Positions 30,684 through 37,611 of a stretch of 64,000 nucleotides of DNA are shown in pieces. The DNA is from Burkholderia sp. BCC0506 (GTDB lineage Bacteria; Pseudomonadota; Gammaproteobacteria; Burkholderiales; Burkholderiaceae), in assembly GCF_902833145.1 (NCBI RefSeq), contig NZ_CADFEN010000008.1, forward strand, positions 186,001 to 250,000, given 5' to 3'. Under the pieces are notes generated by a model, which had not been told where the DNA came from, ran no database searches, and saw only the letters and a program-made list of their open reading frames with translations. Position numbers and translations under genes: made by a program. Numbering within the stretch: position 1 is the stretch's first letter; the number at the start of each line of letters is the position of its first letter.

Positions 30684-31886
30684 TCAGACCGTCGTGTCGA
30701 TGATGCCGGGGATCTTCACGTCCGGGTTCACGTCCGCGTCGTAGTCGACGCCGGCGATCTCGAAGCCGAACAAACGCAGGAACTCGGTCTTGTAGCCCGC
30801 GAAGTCCGTCATCTCGTACAGGTTGTCGTTCGTGACCTTGTCCCACATCGCGACGACCTTGTCCTGCACCTGCGGATCCAGTTCCTTGTAGTCCGCGCGC
30901 AGGCGGCCTTCTTCGTCGACGTGCGGCGTCGGGCCGTACAGGCTGTCCTTCAGGAGCCCGTACACCTGCTCGATGCAGCCTTCGTGCGTGCCCTTCTCCT
31001 TCATCACCTTGAACAGCAGCGACAGGTAGAGCGGCATCATCGGGATCGCGGAGCTGGCCTGCGTGACGACGGCCTTCAGCACCGACACGCGCGCATCGCC
31101 GCCGTGCGCGGCGAGCTTGTCGCGGATCGACAGCACCTTCTTGTCGAGATCCTTCTTCGCTTCGCCGATCGAGCCGTTCCAGTAGATGTCGTGCGTGATC
31201 TGCTCGCCGAGATACGTGAACGCGGTGGTCTTCGCGCCGTCGGCCAGCACGCCGGCTTCGGCGAGCGCGTCGATCCACATCTGCCAGTCCTCGCCGCCCA
31301 TCACCGCGACGGTGCCGTCGATCTCTTCCTGCGTCGCCGGTTCGAGCGCCACTTCGCGGATCACTTCCTTGTCGGTGTCGAGGCCGCGGAACGTGACCGA
31401 CTTGCCGACCGGCTTGAGCGTCGAGCTGATTGTCTCGCCCGTCTTCGGGTGCGTGCGGCGCGGCGCCGCGAGGCTGTAGACGACCAGGTCGACCTTGCCG
31501 AGATCCTGCTTGATCGTGTCGATCGTGATCTGCTTGACCTTGTCGGAGAATGCGTCGCCGTTGATGCTGCGCGCATACAGCCCCTTTTCGGCGGCGAATT
31601 TCTCGAACGCGGCGCTGTTGTACCAGCCGGCCGTGCCCGGCTTCGTCTCGCTGCCGGCGCGCTCGAAGAACACGCCGAGCGTGTCCGCGCCCGAGCCGAA
31701 TGCGGCCGAGATCCGGGCGGCGAGGCCGTAGCCGGTCGACGCGCCGATCACGAGCACCTTTTTCGGGCCATTGGCGATCGGGCCGTGCGAAGTCACGTAG
31801 TCGATCTGTTCCTTGACGTTGGCTTCGCAGCCGACGGGATGAGTCGTCACGCAGATGAAGCCACGCACGCGCGGTTTGATGATCAT
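30684..31886 (-). CDS. fabV: Trans-2-enoyl-ACP/CoA reductase FabV
   Basis: A 400-residue NADH-dependent enoyl reductase, the last step of the fatty-acid elongation cycle. [12 protein letters not shown] is the NAD motif; the catalytic Tyr235 and Lys244 in [14 protein letters not shown] fit the YX8K pattern of B. mallei FabV exactly. FabV-type enzymes are refractory to triclosan. It is divergent from the GbsR-like gene, whose start is 146 bp away with a palindromic operator between; regulation by that protein is possible. It is convergent with the SDR gene. Confidence 0.96.
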
Positions 31887-32002: not shown

Positions 32003-32026
32003 TTATTTCTCTCTTGACAGAAATAA
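32003..32026. promoter_or_regulatory. GbsR-family operator site 1
   Basis: Palindrome of 24 bp: TTATTTCT (32003-32010), spacer CTCTTGAC, AGAAATAA (32019-32026). It ends 5 nt before the regulator ATG and 117 bp from the fabV start, in the shared divergent region. Matches the second site almost base for base. Confidence 0.85.
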
Positions 32027-32031
32027 CTGAA

Positions 32032-32583
32032 ATGAATAAATTTCCCGACATGGAACTCACACCGATCGCCGAACGATTCATTCTCCACTGGGGCGAAATG
32101 GGCTCGCGGTGGGGCGTCAACCGCACCGTCTCGCAGATTCACGCGCTGCTCTACTTGGCCGGCCGGCCGGTGGCGGCCGACGAAATCGCCGAGACGCTCA
32201 ACGTCGCGCGCTCCAACGTCAGCACGAGCCTGAAGGAGCTGCAGGCGTGGCGGCTCGCGAAGGTCGTGCACGTGCTGGGCGATCGCCGCGACCACTTCGA
32301 GACGTCGACCGACATCTGGGAGCTGTTCAAGCTGATCGTCGAAGGGCGGCGGCAGCGCGAGATCGAGCCGACGCTCACGGTGCTGCGCGATTGCCTGACG
32401 AGCCCGGAGATCGCGAACGAGAGCCGCGAGACCGAACAGCGCATTCGCGACACGCTGCAGTTCGTCGAGACGCTCACGACCTGGTCGGACGAGATGCTGC
32501 GGCTCAAGCCCGATACGCTGATGAAGGCGCTCGGCATCGGCGCGAAGATCAGCCAGACGGTCAGGCGCAAGCCGTCGAAGTAA
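32032..32583 (+). CDS. GbsR/MarR-family transcriptional regulator
   Basis: A 183-residue winged-helix regulator of the GbsR/PadR-like MarR group: FILHWGEMGSRWGVNRTVSQIHALLYL, EIAETLNVARSNVSTSLKELQAWRL and LGDRRDHFETSTDIWELFKLI. The ATG at 32032 is used; TTG at 32014 lies inside the operator and ATG at 32050 is possible. No good ribosome site is visible, because the operator fills that region, so binding would also cover the translation start. It sits before a terminator and a second copy of the operator, and it most likely represses the following four-gene operon and itself. Confidence 0.9.
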   Translation: MNKFPDMELTPIAERFILHWGEMGSRWGVNRTVSQIHALLYLAGRPVAADEIAETLNVARSNVSTSLKELQAWRLAKVVHVLGDRRDHFETSTDIWELFKLIVEGRRQREIEPTLTVLRDCLTSPEIANESRETEQRIRDTLQFVETLTTWSDEMLRLKPDTLMKALGIGAKISQTVRRKPSK

Positions 32584-32596
32584 GCAGGAACGGGGG

Positions 32597-32621
32597 AGCG
32601 GGCAGGCAGCCCGCTTTTTTT
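32597..32621 (+). terminator. Terminator after the GbsR-like gene
   Basis: Stem AGCGGGC/GCCCGCT (32597-32603 with 32609-32615), 5-nt loop, T run at 32615-32621; 14 bp past the regulator stop. It separates the regulator from the operon, which therefore needs its own promoter at the second operator. Confidence 0.85.
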
Positions 32622-32628
32622 GGGGTGT

Positions 32629-32652
32629 TTATTTCTGTCTGTACAGAAATAA
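32629..32652. promoter_or_regulatory. GbsR-family operator site 2
   Basis: Palindrome of 24 bp: TTATTTCTGT (32629-32638), spacer CTGT, ACAGAAATAA (32643-32652). Differs from site 1 by only a few bases in the centre, and is 20 bp upstream of the SDR-DoxX start codon. Confidence 0.85.
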
Positions 32653-32671
32653 CTGTAAATTGAGGATGAAA

Positions 32672-33994
32672 ATGAACGCAGTCTTGCCGTCGACCTGTCA
32701 GCCCGAGCGCGCCGGCGCACGCGGCATGACCGTGCTCGTCTGCGGCGCGAACGGCTTCATCGGGCGGGCGCTGTGCGCGCAGCTCGAAGCCGGCGGGCAC
32801 CGCGTGCTGCGCGGCGTGCGTCATGCGGCCGGCCCGCGCGACGTCGCGATCGACTTCACGCAGGACATCGACCCGCAAGCGTGGCTGGCGCGGCTGAAGG
32901 GCGTCGACGTGGTGATCAATGCGGTCGGCATGCTGGCCGATCGACGCGGCGCGACGCTCGACACCGTGCATCGCGCCGCGCCGTGCGCGCTCTTTACCGC
33001 GTGCTGTCGTGCGGGCGTGCGGCGCGTGATCCAGATCTCGGCGCTCGGCGTCGAACGCGGCGACACACGGTACTTCGCGAGCAAGCGTGCGGCCGACCGT
33101 TTTCTGCAGACGCTGCCGATCGATTTCCGTATCGTGCGGCCCGCGCTCGTCTACGGAGCGGCCGGCACGTCAGCACGGTTTTTCCGGATGCTCGCGAGCC
33201 TGCCCGTGCAGGTGTTGCCGGCAGGCGGCCATCAGCGGCTGCGCCCCGTGCATGTCGACGATCTCGCCGAAGTCGTTGCGCGGCTCGTCATCCAGGCGGG
33301 CGATTTGCCGTCGGCGGCAACCCGCCGCGTGATCGACGTGGTCGGCCACGACGAAGTCGAATACCGCGAGATGCTGGCCGGCTATCGCGCGGCGCTCGGA
33401 TTTCCGCCGGCCGCCTGCGTGACGCTGCCGGGCCCGCTGGTGGGCGCGGCGGCCGCGCTGCTCGGCGCATGGCCGGGGGTGATGCTGACGCGCGACACGT
33501 GGACGATGCTGCGCGGCGGCAACACCGGCGATCCGGCGGCCACCGCGGCCGTGCTGGGCCGGCCGCCGCGCGGTATCGGCGGCTTCATCGGCGCGGAAGC
33601 CGCCGCGCTGCGCCGCGACGCGCTCGCGATGTGGCGGCGCCCGTTGCTGCGGGGCGCGCTCGCGGTCGTGTGGATCTGGACGGCGATCGCCAGCGCATTC
33701 ATCCATCCGCTGGAGGCGAGCCTCGCGCTGCTTGCGCCCGCGCACCTGACGGGGCTGCCCGCGCTGATCGCGCTGTACGCGGCCAGCGCGCTGGACTTCG
33801 CGTTCGGCATCGCGACCGTCGTCGCGCCGTCGCGGCGCCTGTGGGCCGCGCAAGCGGCGCTGATCGTCGCGTACTCGGCGGTCATCGCGGTCACGATGCC
33901 GGGCCTGCTCGCCGAACCGTTCGGCCCCGTGCTCAAGAACGTGCCGATTCTCGCGATCCTGTTGATCCTCTTTTCAGAAGAAGAACACGCATGA
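32672..33994 (+). CDS. NAD(P)-binding SDR fused to a DoxX-like membrane domain
   Basis: A 440-residue fusion. Residues about 20-300 are an extended SDR/NmrA-like domain (VCGANGFIGRAL dinucleotide motif, RVIQISALGV strand, YFASKRAADR catalytic-type YxxxK). The C-terminal 110 residues hold about four helices of the DoxX-like type (LRGALAVVWIWTAIASAFIHP onward). The SDR portion resembles complex I assembly (NDUFA9-like) and epimerase-type folds; function unknown. ATG at 32672 lies 6 nt after GAGG. First gene of a four-gene operon; its TGA overlaps the next ATG. Confidence 0.88.
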   Translation: MNAVLPSTCQPERAGARGMTVLVCGANGFIGRALCAQLEAGGHRVLRGVRHAAGPRDVAIDFTQDIDPQAWLARLKGVDVVINAVGMLADRRGATLDTVHRAAPCALFTACCRAGVRRVIQISALGVERGDTRYFASKRAADRFLQTLPIDFRIVRPALVYGAAGTSARFFRMLASLPVQVLPAGGHQRLRPVHVDDLAEVVARLVIQAGDLPSAATRRVIDVVGHDEVEYREMLAGYRAALGFPPAACVTLPGPLVGAAAALLGAWPGVMLTRDTWTMLRGGNTGDPAATAAVLGRPPRGIGGFIGAEAAALRRDALAMWRRPLLRGALAVVWIWTAIASAFIHPLEASLALLAPAHLTGLPALIALYAASALDFAFGIATVVAPSRRLWAAQAALIVAYSAVIAVTMPGLLAEPFGPVLKNVPILAILLILFSEEEHA

Positions 33995-34461
33995 ATACCT
34001 ATCTCGTCATCAAGGCGCTGCACATCCTGTCGTCGGTGCTGCTGGTCGGCACGGGGTTCGGCACCGCGTTCTACCTGTTCTTCGCGAACCGCACGCGGTC
34101 GGTGCCCGCGATCGCGGCCGTGTCGCGGCTCGTGGTGCGCGCGGACTGGTGGTTCACGACACCGGCCGTGATCTTCCAGCCGGCGTCCGGGCTGTGGCTC
34201 GCGCACACGGCTGGCTGGCCGTGGCATACGCCGTGGCTGCTCGCGTCGATCGTGCTGTACGCGGTTGCCGGCGCGTGCTGGTTGCCGGTCGTGTGGCTGC
34301 AGCTCGAACTTGCGGCGATGGCGCGGCGCGCGCACGCGAACGGCGACGCCGCGTTGCCGGCGCGCTACTGGCGCTATGCGAAGCGCTGGGAACTGCTCGG
34401 TTATCCGGCGTTCTTCGCGATGCTGATCGTGTATTTCCTGATGGTGGTCAAGCCGATGTAG
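33991..34461 (+). CDS. DUF2269 membrane protein
   Basis: A 156-residue integral membrane protein with four helices: NTYLVIKALHILSSVLLVGTGFGTAFYLFFA, then VRADWWFTTPAVIFQPASG, LLASIVLYAVAGACWLPVV and YPAFFAMLIVYFLMV. Conserved His11, Trp/Phe and Pro within helices fit DUF2269, which may bind haem or quinone; unproven. ATGA overlap with the preceding gene; a gap of 88 bp follows before the DCC gene. Confidence 0.9.
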   Translation: MNTYLVIKALHILSSVLLVGTGFGTAFYLFFANRTRSVPAIAAVSRLVVRADWWFTTPAVIFQPASGLWLAHTAGWPWHTPWLLASIVLYAVAGACWLPVVWLQLELAAMARRAHANGDAALPARYWRYAKRWELLGYPAFFAMLIVYFLMVVKPM

Positions 34462-34549
34462 GTCCGACGCCGTCGCGCGGGAGCGGCGGCATACGCGGGA
34501 AAGCAGTCGATCGATTCATGACGCTTGCGAAAAAAAAGGAGTGCAGAGC

Positions 34550-35419
34550 ATGAACGCGAGTGAGCTGGTTCTCTACTTCGACGGGCGATGTCCGTTATGC
34601 GTCGCGGAAATCCGGCGTCTCGGCGAGCGCGACGCGCGGCACCGGCTGGCGTTCGTCGACATCGCCGAGCCGGGTTTCGACCCGACGCCGCTGGGCGTCG
34701 ACCTGCCCGCGCTGAATCGCGAACTGCATGCGCGCCTGCCCGACGGACGCATGCTGACCGGCATCGACGGCATCGCGGCCGCCCATGCGTTGATTGGGCG
34801 TCGCTGGTTCGCGCGGCTGCTTCGCTCGCCGGCGATGCGTGCCGTGTCCGCGCCGCTGTATCGCCGCCTCGCACGCAACCGGTATGCGGTATCGCGCTGG
34901 CTCGGATATCGCACGGAAGCCGGTTGCGAAGGCGGCGCGTGCAGCATCGGCAGGAGCGCCGAAAACGCGGCGGCGAATCGGCCGCCGCGCGACAGCGCAC
35001 GCCGCATCGTCGTGCGCTGTATGTACGCAGCCGCGATCGCGCACCTGCTCGTCGGTGTGGTGATGCCGTGGATTGCCGGCGCATCCTGGCTCGATGCCTA
35101 TCACCGGAGCATCGAATCGCATTTCTGGACTGGAGCGGCGCCCGAAGCCGCGCGCGCCCAGCAGGTCTGGTGGGTGTCGCTGCTCGGCGCGACGGTGCAG
35201 TGCGCCGCGGTATGGATGCTCGCGCTCGTCCATCTCGGCAACCGGTTGCGGAACCGGGAAGTGTGGGGCTGGCTGCTGGCCGGCCTGTCGATCTGGGCGC
35301 CGCAGGACATGCTGTTGTCGTGGCAGGCGCAGGTGTGGGGGCACGTGGCGATCGACGTCGTTGCACTTGTCGCGATGGTGCCGCCGCTGGTCTGGCTGTG
35401 GAGGAGGGATACCGCATGA
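34550..35419 (+). CDS. DCC-family thiol-disulfide protein with membrane C-terminus
   Basis: A 289-residue protein. The N-terminal DUF393 (thiol-disulfide oxidoreductase DCC) domain opens with YFDGRCPLCVAEI: Asp11, Cys14 and Cys17 form the D-x-x-C-P-x-C motif. After about residue 150 come four or so helices, so the redox domain is membrane-anchored. There is a second Cys pair (GCEGGACSIG). ATG at 34550 lies 7 nt after AAGGAG. Coupled by ATGA overlap to the next gene, third in the operon. Possibly a cytoplasmic-side dithiol reductase; substrate unknown. Confidence 0.87.
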   Translation: MNASELVLYFDGRCPLCVAEIRRLGERDARHRLAFVDIAEPGFDPTPLGVDLPALNRELHARLPDGRMLTGIDGIAAAHALIGRRWFARLLRSPAMRAVSAPLYRRLARNRYAVSRWLGYRTEAGCEGGACSIGRSAENAAANRPPRDSARRIVVRCMYAAAIAHLLVGVVMPWIAGASWLDAYHRSIESHFWTGAAPEAARAQQVWWVSLLGATVQCAAVWMLALVHLGNRLRNREVWGWLLAGLSIWAPQDMLLSWQAQVWGHVAIDVVALVAMVPPLVWLWRRDTA

Positions 35420-36915
35420 ACACGTTGCCGGCTTTCGACTGGGCGCTCGACCTGCTGATCGTGCAGGGCGCGATGGGCGCATTCGATACGCTTTACCACC
35501 ACGAACTCACGCAGGATCTGCCGCACAGCCCGCGCGCGCGGCTCGAACTGGCGATTCATGCGGTGCGGTCCGTGCTGTACGGCCTCGTGTTCGCGTCGAT
35601 CGCGAACGTCGCGTTTCACGGCGCGTGGGTCGCGGCGCTTGCGGCGGTCGTGCTCGTCGAAGTAGGGCTGACGTTGTGGGATTTCGTCGTCGAGGACCAA
35701 AGCCGCAAGCTGCCGGCGACCGAGCGTGTGCTGCATACGCTGCTGGCCGTCAACGGCGGCGCGCTGTTCGGGATGATCGCAATGCAGCTCGCCGTGTGGG
35801 CGCACGAACCGACCGCACTGCACGCGCTCGACCTCGGCTGGCGCGGCCGGCTGCTCAGCCTGTTTGCCGTCGGCGTGACGGTGTCGGGCGTGCGCGACGG
35901 GATCGCCGCGTGCCGTATCGCGCGACGCACGCCGGCCGCCAACCCGTTCGCGGGACAGCCGCCGGGCAACGTGCTCGTCACCGGCGGGACCGGCTTCATC
36001 GGCGAAACGCTCGTCAACCAGTTGCTCGATGCAGGCCATACGGTCACGCTGCTGGCGCGCGATCCGCTGCGCGCGGCCTACCTGTTTCAAGGCCGCGTGC
36101 GCAGCGTGACGTCCGCTGAACAGTTGCAGCCGCACGAGCGCTTCGACACGGTCGTCAATCTCGCCGGTGCGCCGGTGCTGGGCGCCCGCTGGAGCAAGCG
36201 CCGGCAGGCGCTGCTGCTCGCCAGCCGCGTCGGCGTCACGCAGGCACTGATCCGCTGGGTCGAGACCGCCGAGGTCAAGCCGCGCACGTGGATCCAGGCG
36301 TCGGCGATCGGCTACTACGGCGTGCGGTCAGGCGACGAACGGCTCGACGAGCGTAGCCGCGCGGGCACCGGCTTCATGTCGGCGCTGTGCCGGCAGTGGG
36401 AAGCGGCCGCACAGCCGCTCGAACGCCACGGCGTGCGCACGGTGGTGTTGCGGCTGGGCATCGTGTTCGGCCCGGGCGGTGCGTTGCGCCCGATGCTGCT
36501 GCCGCACTACTTCGGGCTCGGCGGCCGATTCGGCGACGGCGCGCAGGTGATGAGCTGGATCCACCGCGACGACGTGCTGCGGATCGTCGCACGCGCGATG
36601 TCGCATGCCGGCATGCGGGGCGTCTACAACGCGGTCGCTCCGATGCCGCTGACCCAGCGCGCGTTCGTGCAGGTCGTGACGAAGGTGCTGCGCCGCCCCG
36701 CGTTGCTGCACGTGCCGGCCGCGCCGCTGCGCATCGCGATGGGCGAGATGGCCGAGCTGCTGCTGGACGGGCAGCGCGTGATGCCGGCACGGCTGCATCA
36801 GGACGGGTTCACGTTCCGCTTTCCGACGGCCGAGCACGCGCTGCGTGACCTGACGAATCGGCCGCACGCCGATTTCGCGCCCGCCGCCTGCCGTTTCCCG
36901 CGAGGTCGTGTATAA
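35416..36915 (+). CDS. Membrane domain fused to a TIGR01777 (SDR39U1) NAD(P)-binding domain
   Basis: A 499-residue fusion. Residues 1-175 form about four helices, beginning WALDLLIVQGAMGAFDTLYHHELTQDLP with a His-rich loop. Residues about 190-495 are a TIGR01777/SDR39U1 epimerase: VTGGTGFIGETLVNQLL, VVNLAGAPVLGARWSKRR, IGYYG and SWIHRDDVLRIV. The paralogue YfcH lacks the membrane part. Last gene of the GbsR-regulated operon (ATGA overlap with DCC). Two SDR domains, each anchored, plus a redox thiol protein suggest a membrane-associated NAD(P)-linked redox or lipid modification complex; this is inference. Confidence 0.88.
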   Translation: MNTLPAFDWALDLLIVQGAMGAFDTLYHHELTQDLPHSPRARLELAIHAVRSVLYGLVFASIANVAFHGAWVAALAAVVLVEVGLTLWDFVVEDQSRKLPATERVLHTLLAVNGGALFGMIAMQLAVWAHEPTALHALDLGWRGRLLSLFAVGVTVSGVRDGIAACRIARRTPAANPFAGQPPGNVLVTGGTGFIGETLVNQLLDAGHTVTLLARDPLRAAYLFQGRVRSVTSAEQLQPHERFDTVVNLAGAPVLGARWSKRRQALLLASRVGVTQALIRWVETAEVKPRTWIQASAIGYYGVRSGDERLDERSRAGTGFMSALCRQWEAAAQPLERHGVRTVVLRLGIVFGPGGALRPMLLPHYFGLGGRFGDGAQVMSWIHRDDVLRIVARAMSHAGMRGVYNAVAPMPLTQRAFVQVVTKVLRRPALLHVPAAPLRIAMGEMAELLLDGQRVMPARLHQDGFTFRFPTAEHALRDLTNRPHADFAPAACRFPRGRV

Positions 36916-36987: not shown

Positions 36988-37611
36988 ATGCTGCACGTCC
37001 TCGGCAAGATTCCGTCCATCAACGTCCGCAAGGTGCTGTGGCTGTGCACCGAACTGAACCTGCCGTTCGAACAGGAAGACTGGGGCGCGGGTTTCCGCAC
37101 GACCCATGATCCGGCGTATCTCGCGCTGAATCCGAACGCGCTCGTGCCCGTCATCAAGGATGACGACTTCGTGCTCTGGGAATCGAACACGATCATCCGC
37201 TATCTCGCGAACCGCTACGGCGGCGATGCGCTGTATCCGGCCGAGCCGCAGGCGCGTGCGCGGGTCGACCAGTGGATCGACTGGCAGGGCTCGGACCTGA
37301 ATCGCTCGTGGGTCGGCGCATTCCTCGGCCTCGTGCGCAAATCGCCCGACCATCAGGATCCGGACGGCATCGCGCAGTCGATCGCCGGCTGGACGAAGCA
37401 CATGCACGTGTTGAATGCGCAGCTCGAAAAGACCGGCGCATATGTGGCCGGCAACACCTTCACGCTCGCGGATATCCCGATCGGCCTGTCGGTGAACCGC
37501 TGGTTCGGCACGCCGTTCGAGCATCCGGAGCTGCCGGCGGTGTCGCGCTATATCGAACGTCTCGCCACGCGTGAAGGGTTCAAGCAGTACGGAGGCAGCG
37601 CGAATCCGTAA
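36988..37611 (+). CDS. Glutathione S-transferase family protein
   Basis: A 207-residue [22 protein letters not shown] (Ser10 as GSH-activating residue), ALVPVIKDD (cis-Pro), [11 protein letters not shown] (Glu-Ser GSH-binding motif) and [12 protein letters not shown] in the helical domain. Similar to the short Burkholderia/Pseudomonas GSTs of unknown substrate. ATG at 36988 after AAGGAGA. 72 bp after the operon above but with its own ribosome site; possibly independent. Confidence 0.92.

Follow-up and report, generated by a model that had tools for sequence, protein, structure and literature searches.

Introduction

CydE of Alishewanella (PMC6096048) and CioR of Chromobacterium violaceum (PMC11837568) are described, in the portions of these papers that were available, as GbsR-type repressors of cytochrome bd. 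Release of CydE and CioR was reported there for sulfate and, indirectly, for cyanide or metals, and CydE was footprinted on TATTTCAGAAATTTCTGAAAGTTCA (PMC6096048). OpuAR, GbsR and OpcR of Bacillus belong to the same regulator family (PMC6207618), and the available text of that paper counts 179 GbsR-type proteins, of which 80 fall into neither the osmostress nor the cytochrome bd group. The present analysis concerns a GbsR-type regulator gene and the four-gene operon downstream of it, which occupy positions 32003 to 36915 of a 64,000-nucleotide stretch of Burkholderia sp. BCC0506 (contig NZ_CADFEN010000008.1, positions 186,001 to 250,000). The whole stretch is called the window below, and coordinates of features are counted from its first letter. 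The operon encodes an SDR fused to DoxX (SDR-DoxX), a DUF2269 protein, a DCC1-like thiol-disulfide protein with a C-terminal membrane domain (M1), and an SDR39U1 protein with an N-terminal membrane domain (M2). An earlier reading of the same DNA from its letters alone (the first-pass annotation) had stated that no function was described for this set. None was found in the open-licence literature to the extent that its text was accessible: searches returned no paper on the gene set as such, and the papers naming DUF2269 gave no function for it.

The locus was interpreted tentatively, at somewhat less than an even chance, as a membrane-redox operon that is inducible and controlled by a GbsR-type autorepressor. 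The regulatory switch within this interpretation, a GbsR-type repressor acting on two operators, was considered highly probable from comparison of sequences.

Regulator and operators

The regulator (gene at 32050..32583, + strand) matched PF12802 MarR_2 (E 7.7e-10), and its closest solved chain by sequence was 1ku9/Mj223 (positions 8-136, E 1.1e-15), the modelling template for GbsR according to the available text of PMC6207618. Two features of GbsR-type membership, a MarR_2 winged helix and Mj223 similarity extending beyond the helix-turn-helix, were thereby found. The score against NF047500 (CudC) was 47.3, below the cut-off of 218, and, unlike the surroundings of the Bacillus regulators as given in the accessible part of PMC6207618, the scanned neighbours included no osmolyte transport or choline genes.

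Two palindromes, both strand-neutral, were located at 32003..32026 (operator 1) and 32629..32652 (operator 2). They are identical at 21 of 24 letters, in keeping with the earlier description of two near-identical 24-bp elements, and the arms of each pair at 10 of 12 positions. Both were the sole matches in the 7.29-Mb genome to TTATTTCTGTN4ACAGAAATAA at up to three mismatches, and the site type conserved across loci was ATTTCTGTN4ACAGAAAT. Sequence comparison thus supports the claim of the first-pass annotation that a GbsR-type regulator has two operators of its own.

As in the CydE and CioR systems, so far as the available text of PMC6096048 and PMC11837568 describes them, a GbsR-type repressor is predicted to be autoregulated and is encoded beside its target operon. 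Footprinted site 1 of CydE and the operators here have the same TTTC-N10-GAAA frame, whereas the inner half-site is TTTCTGT here and TTTCAG in the CydE/CioR system, again by the accessible text; at one further locus (L103) the site has 19 consecutive letters in common with the published CydE footprint site as available. The target here is SDR-DoxX/DUF2269 instead of cydAB, and cydAB was absent beside the window regulator, whose neighbours are fabV and SDR-DoxX. A sister GbsR-type subfamily from the same order (seven loci, L164-L170) was monophyletic among 43 regulators (support 1.0), with the regulator of L131 branching at its base. cydA (PF01654) adjoined the sister regulator in all four of the seven loci that were tested, and a TTTC..GAAA box was present in six of the seven (four reading TTTCAG or TTTCCAG, one inside a called open reading frame).

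Operator 1 overlaps the -35 box of the regulator promoter. The -35 hexamer TTGACA (32014..32019, +) lies within the palindrome, the -10 hexamer TAAATT (32037..32042, +) follows after a spacer of 17 nt, and 7 nt further on stands the ATG to which the start of the regulator gene was revised. Most likely translation starts at this ATG (32050), and not at the upstream ATG at 32032 inside the promoter spacer. The arrangement was followed through the best 80 of at least 387 loci found with DUF2269 (hereafter the DUF2269-80 set, of which the 17 nearest loci are Burkholderia and which overlaps the set of genus genomes used below). TTGACA crossed the centre of operator 1 in 62 of 63 sites, a TANNNT -10 box stood at a distance of 16-18 nt in 58 of 61, and the start codon lay 6-9 nt past the -10 box in 58 of 58, with 7 nt in 39. 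This spacing argues that the regulator is an autorepressor covering its own -35 box, and the mRNA would probably be leaderless.

An intrinsic terminator (32592..32621, +; hairpin and T tract) was located 3' of the regulator, where the earlier annotation had placed one between regulator and operon. Its hairpin was computed at -17.1 kcal/mol (z -2.15), 6 of 200 shuffles folded equally well, and a separate pattern scan for terminators missed it. Operator 2 follows, ahead of the operon and with no clear sigma-70 promoter around it. In the DUF2269-80 set the letters equivalent to the -35 box read TTG at only 5 of 59 copies of operator 2, and a T run (at least 5) stood within 30 nt ahead of it in 57 of 59. 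Operator 2 may therefore act on read-through as a roadblock, or a weak promoter may lie there.

Conservation in the genus

The core site (at most one mismatch) was sought in 41 genomes, 25 of the genus and 16 others of the order; the pattern written backwards, as a control, was found in 0 of the 41. Core sites were present in 22 of the 25 genus genomes (two sites in 21, one in G011), by the listed coordinates all at this locus. The three genus genomes without a core site (G006, G014, G021) are the three of 25 without DUF2269, and the regulator was absent from all seven genus genomes without DUF2269 when searched with the same model that detects the regulator of the window genome. Because the site- and regulator-free genomes lack DUF2269, locus and sites come and go together in the genus.

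Besides the window's own locus there were 29 genus hits, of which G031 (its contig is short) and G035 were left out and the other 27 loci compared. Both operators were found in all 27, with 0-3 mismatches (best match per 230-bp window). Regulator, SDR-DoxX and DUF2269 were constant across the genus loci fetched, and the ratio of nonsynonymous to synonymous substitution rates lay between 0 and 0.31 in four hand-chosen comparisons within the genus. The M2-SDR39U1 gene was intact in 15 loci, present as remnants in two (L043, L059) and lacking in 10, which requires at least three losses if the gene is ancestral. Twelve loci had the full DCC-M1 gene, three a copy lacking the DCC domain, one a partial copy and 11 none.

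Conserved synteny, whose absence formed one half of the refuting condition in the first-pass annotation, was seen in the genus and in other families. Of the membrane-redox set proposed there, the membrane, NAD(P)H-binding and CxxC parts were borne out; the single, obligatory four-protein complex was not, as DCC and M2-SDR39U1 are lost, truncated or absent in many genus loci where the regulator and both sites stay. Such losses, including those of the DCC domain alone, fit an explanation in which two biochemically independent units answer to one regulator and the adjoining GST-like gene is a bystander. This explanation was regarded as a serious possibility, though as less than probable, and the wider distribution bears on it further.

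Distribution beyond the genus

Searched with a regulator profile, 80 of 349 genomes of the order contained relatives from one subfamily or the other. Of the 30 best order-level regulator loci, 29 contained a site by a looser pattern and 28 a module gene. Across the 30 loci, 53 sites were observed against 0.05 expected from a simple dinucleotide shuffle (20 per locus), a ratio that is a description and not a blind test because the pattern was written after the first sites had been seen.

The DUF2269-80 set comprised Burkholderia, Paraburkholderia, Caballeronia, Cupriavidus, Achromobacter, Bordetella, Pandoraea, Chromobacterium, Neisseria, Roseateles and other genera. The regulator was present in 68 of the 80 loci and, by the loose pattern, a site in 66 of those 68; at least two sites were found in 59 of the 80, and a site with no regulator in view in four. 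SDR and DoxX matches occurred in 72 loci, DCC in 27 and M2 in 10, the last two counts again favouring independent units. Taken as sequence matches, these loci indicate that the putatively regulator-controlled gene cluster recurs in many beta-proteobacteria. Among the 16 other genomes of the order, six had a core site (G040, G042, G049, G050, G051, G052). In G040, G049 and G052 core sites stood at the regulator loci, and in G052, which had no DUF2269 match, the regulator was found together with M2-SDR39U1.

Hand-picked sets of loci were chosen for family spread and are non-random. In one of these, 20 extended regulator loci, an SDR of the SDR-DoxX type was present in 10, SDR39U1 in nine, M2 in seven and DUF4166 in seven. 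M2 occurred with no DUF2269 in view in five, some stretches ending early. At four loci (L180, L183, L184, L187) the regulator was accompanied by M2-SDR39U1 with no DUF2269 in the fetched stretch, and DCC and/or DUF4166 were also present in three of the four. Because regulator-seeded loci show such mixed module content, the regulator and its sites appear as the constant element, and SDR-DoxX-DUF2269 and DCC/M2-SDR39U1 as two separable modules, both of which are present in the window. The five loci with M2 and no DUF2269 in view are what two independent units would leave behind. Against full independence, the two units are again found next to each other, with the same regulator and sites, in other families and in other gene orders and domain splits, and this recurrence suggests related tasks.

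Small membrane proteins that look alike by eye were seen at L176:6457-6789, L177:1702-2061, L182:7179-7595 and L063; the two that were scanned (L063, L182) had no Pfam match.

SDR-DoxX and DUF2269

The first operon gene (32672..33994, +) encodes an SDR (PF01370/PF13460 in the Pfam scan) fused to a DoxX_3 membrane domain (PF13781), with GxxGxxG and the Ser/Tyr/Lys pattern. Across SDR matches GxxGxxG was present in 71 of 73 and YxxxK in 69 of 73, and S123 and K138 were among the columns conserved at 97% or above. The second gene (33991..34461, +) encodes the DUF2269 protein (PF10027 in the Pfam scan). Of 398 Pseudomonadota genomes sampled, 105 had a DUF2269 match, which in 95 exceeded the curated cut-off; none of 14 controls had one. 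Among 40 DUF2269 loci picked by hand, 21 had both an SDR and a DoxX match no more than 3 kb away on the same strand, seven had a saccharopine-type dehydrogenase, and 29 had at least one of the three (SDR, saccharopine type, DoxX). In three Neisseriaceae-type loci (L264, L272, L273) DoxX and SDR are encoded apart with DUF2269 between them, a split that argues for shared function.

In six loci (L239, L269, L271, L274, L278, L283) DUF2269 was accompanied by a saccharopine-dehydrogenase-like partner replacing the SDR; neither regulator nor site was in view in any such locus of the DUF2269-80 set (0/6). One locus (L193) had a saccharopine-dehydrogenase-like gene in addition to regulator, sites and SDR-DoxX. 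Tandem DUF2269 genes were observed in three others (L087, L090, L124), where the fetched stretch matched neither SDR nor DoxX nor the regulator.

DUF2269 was predicted as four long helices (mean predicted local distance difference test score, pLDDT, 93.7). HemJ (PF03653) is alike in size and in the K-x-x-H-I of helix 1. A direct scan of the DUF2269 protein against PF03653 gave no match (PF10027 only, E up to 0.1). HemJ and DUF2269 profiles aligned end to end over 131 columns at 28% identity, K-x-x-H-I included; the HemJ open reading frames (13 of 14 loci used) had been picked by their K-x-x-H motif, so that the shared motif is partly a matter of choice. With HemJ as query, hhalign scored 31.9, and the highest of 100 shuffled controls reached 23.0. 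Kinship of DUF2269 with HemJ is a possible lead from these alignments. A distant DUF989 (PuuD)-DUF2269 similarity (E 0.15) is given in the available text of PMC4562309.

The DoxX-SodA-SseA complex of M. tuberculosis, by the accessible part of PMC6930017, has in common with this locus a DoxX-type membrane protein and a thiol oxidoreductase partner. Here, in contrast, DoxX_3 is fused to an SDR and the partner is DCC, which is optional; neither SodA nor SseA was among the six gene products scanned in the window.

DCC and M2-SDR39U1

The third gene (34550..35419, +) encodes a protein matching PF04134 (E 6.6e-22), with a CPLC motif from residue 14. The PF04134 match and CxxC are the features of DCC1-like membership, and CxxC was kept in 28 of 29 DCC matches. 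The CxxC part of the earlier description held; the protein's own C-terminal membrane domain, M1, had gone unmentioned. The last gene (35416..36915, +) encodes M2 fused to SDR39U1/TIGR01777 and DUF1731. The score against TIGR01777 was 314.9 bits (curated cut-off 207.35), which places the protein in the SDR39U1/YfcH/TIGR01777 family, with solved relatives 3oh8 and 4b4o. Unlike the known members, it carries M2 at its N-terminus. No Pfam match was obtained for M1 or M2 in the window copy. Profile matches throughout the operon and its regulator agreed in kind with the gene calls of the first-pass annotation, and the junctions agreed with its statement that all but one are ATGA overlaps (two of three, with an 88-nt gap between DUF2269 and DCC).

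M2 was predicted as five helices (pLDDT 92.3). In 12 of 12 aligned homologues D24, H29-E30, E44xxxH48, E82, D89, E93-D94 and E103xxxH107 were invariant. By inferred topology, most of these polar residues sit near helix ends (helices 1-4), at the membrane face that leads into the fused SDR domain. On this model M2 may hold a metal or substrate site.

Neighbouring genes

fabV, an enoyl reductase gene (30684..31886, -), is divergent from the regulator in the window and in 27 of 27 genus loci; in the window 116 nt separate its start from operator 1. Operator 1 could on that account also control fabV, and the regulon would then be about fatty-acid synthesis stress. This was considered very unlikely, given that operator 1 sits on the regulator's own -35 box and that at L060, the one non-genus locus compared on this point, the upstream gene is GST-like and the site is retained.

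A GST-like gene (36988..37611, +) begins 72 nt downstream of the operon and is a possible member of it. It adjoins the operon in 26 of the 27 genus loci, the fetched stretch of L053 containing none, and it stays 3' of the genus operon even where DCC and SDR39U1 are lost.

Discussion

In the inducible membrane-redox operon favoured here, a regulator dimer on operator 1 would keep RNA polymerase off the regulator's own promoter, and a dimer on operator 2 would block transcription into the operon. By analogy to CydE and CioR, release would follow a signal such as a metal, a sulfur compound or a respiratory inhibitor. In the window and near relatives, SDR-DoxX and DUF2269 would take hydride from NAD(P)H, and electrons would pass to a membrane acceptor by way of the helices of DoxX and DUF2269, where DUF2269 might bind a heme in the manner of HemJ. 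The same switch would govern a second module, DCC and M2-SDR39U1, which is separable from the first and would act on thiols or in a further step at the membrane surface that depends on NAD(P)H; in distant genomes this module could stand under the regulator without DUF2269. That the products make up an NAD(P)H oxidoreductase of the membrane, with a quinone, a heme or a thiol as acceptor, is nearly an even call, on the lower side. Physical association of the products, and redox chemistry on a lipid or quinone, both part of the first proposal, are putative.

The main rival for the chemistry is a membrane-lipid modifying set, in which a lipid or isoprenoid bound by DoxX/DUF2269 would be the substrate that the SDRs reduce or isomerise, and no respiratory acceptor would receive electrons. 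It was judged unlikely, and part of the distribution speaks for it. At L181 (6065-7909) the regulator and two sites precede a 615-aa desaturase-like and methyltransferase protein (desaturase match PF00487, 27.5 bits, below the cut-off of 29.7), and at L174 a methyltransferase follows the regulator. DUF4166, counted above in seven of the 20 extended regulator loci, was confirmed by Pfam in both copies scanned (L190, L193), and the L190 copy has a weak match to Polyketide_cyc2, described as lipid transport. The position of most conserved polar residues of M2, near helix ends and toward the SDR by inferred topology, would also suit a lipid substrate. The desaturase case is one locus, however, and the CxxC kept in nearly all DCC matches, the possible kinship of DUF2269 with HemJ and the cytochrome bd genes adjoining the sister regulators all point away from lipid modification.

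Several observations weigh against a membrane-redox operon under its own autorepressor, L181 among them. On the regulatory side, no recognisable or conserved promoter was found at operator 2 in the DUF2269-80 set or the window, and two regulator loci of that set, both Pandoraea, had no site by the loose pattern. Three genomes of the order (G042, G050, G051) had one core site each, with one mismatch and no DUF2269 match, and G049 had a third core site away from its locus. Module content also varied: in the 20 extended regulator loci DUF2269 was in view in eight and DCC in 16, and L181 and L182 had no module profile match at all. As to the chemistry, the SDR tyrosine (Y134) was not among the columns conserved at 97% or above, the reverse hhalign direction scored 19.9, within the shuffled range (maximum 23.1), and comparison of the DUF2269 and M2 models with the PDB gave nothing above helical background in either case.

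A more detailed joint proposal was thought doubtful, more so than the lipid alternative. It holds that SDR-DoxX and DUF2269 constitute an undescribed class of membrane NAD(P)H:acceptor oxidoreductase with a HemJ-like heme-binding DUF2269, accompanied or replaced in some lineages by M2-SDR39U1, with M2 a new domain that has a possible two-metal site. The mRNA of the common repressor would be leaderless, with its promoter in its own operator, and operator 2 would act as a roadblock to read-through and not on a promoter of its own.

The protein family DUF2269 is here tied to a sharply defined regulator, site and partner, and its inducer, and through the inducer its function, therefore becomes testable. 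The compounds that release CydE and CioR would be the first inducer candidates for the regulator of this locus. Control of the GbsR/CydE type, known for cytochrome bd and osmolyte uptake, would thereby be extended to a new kind of membrane operon.

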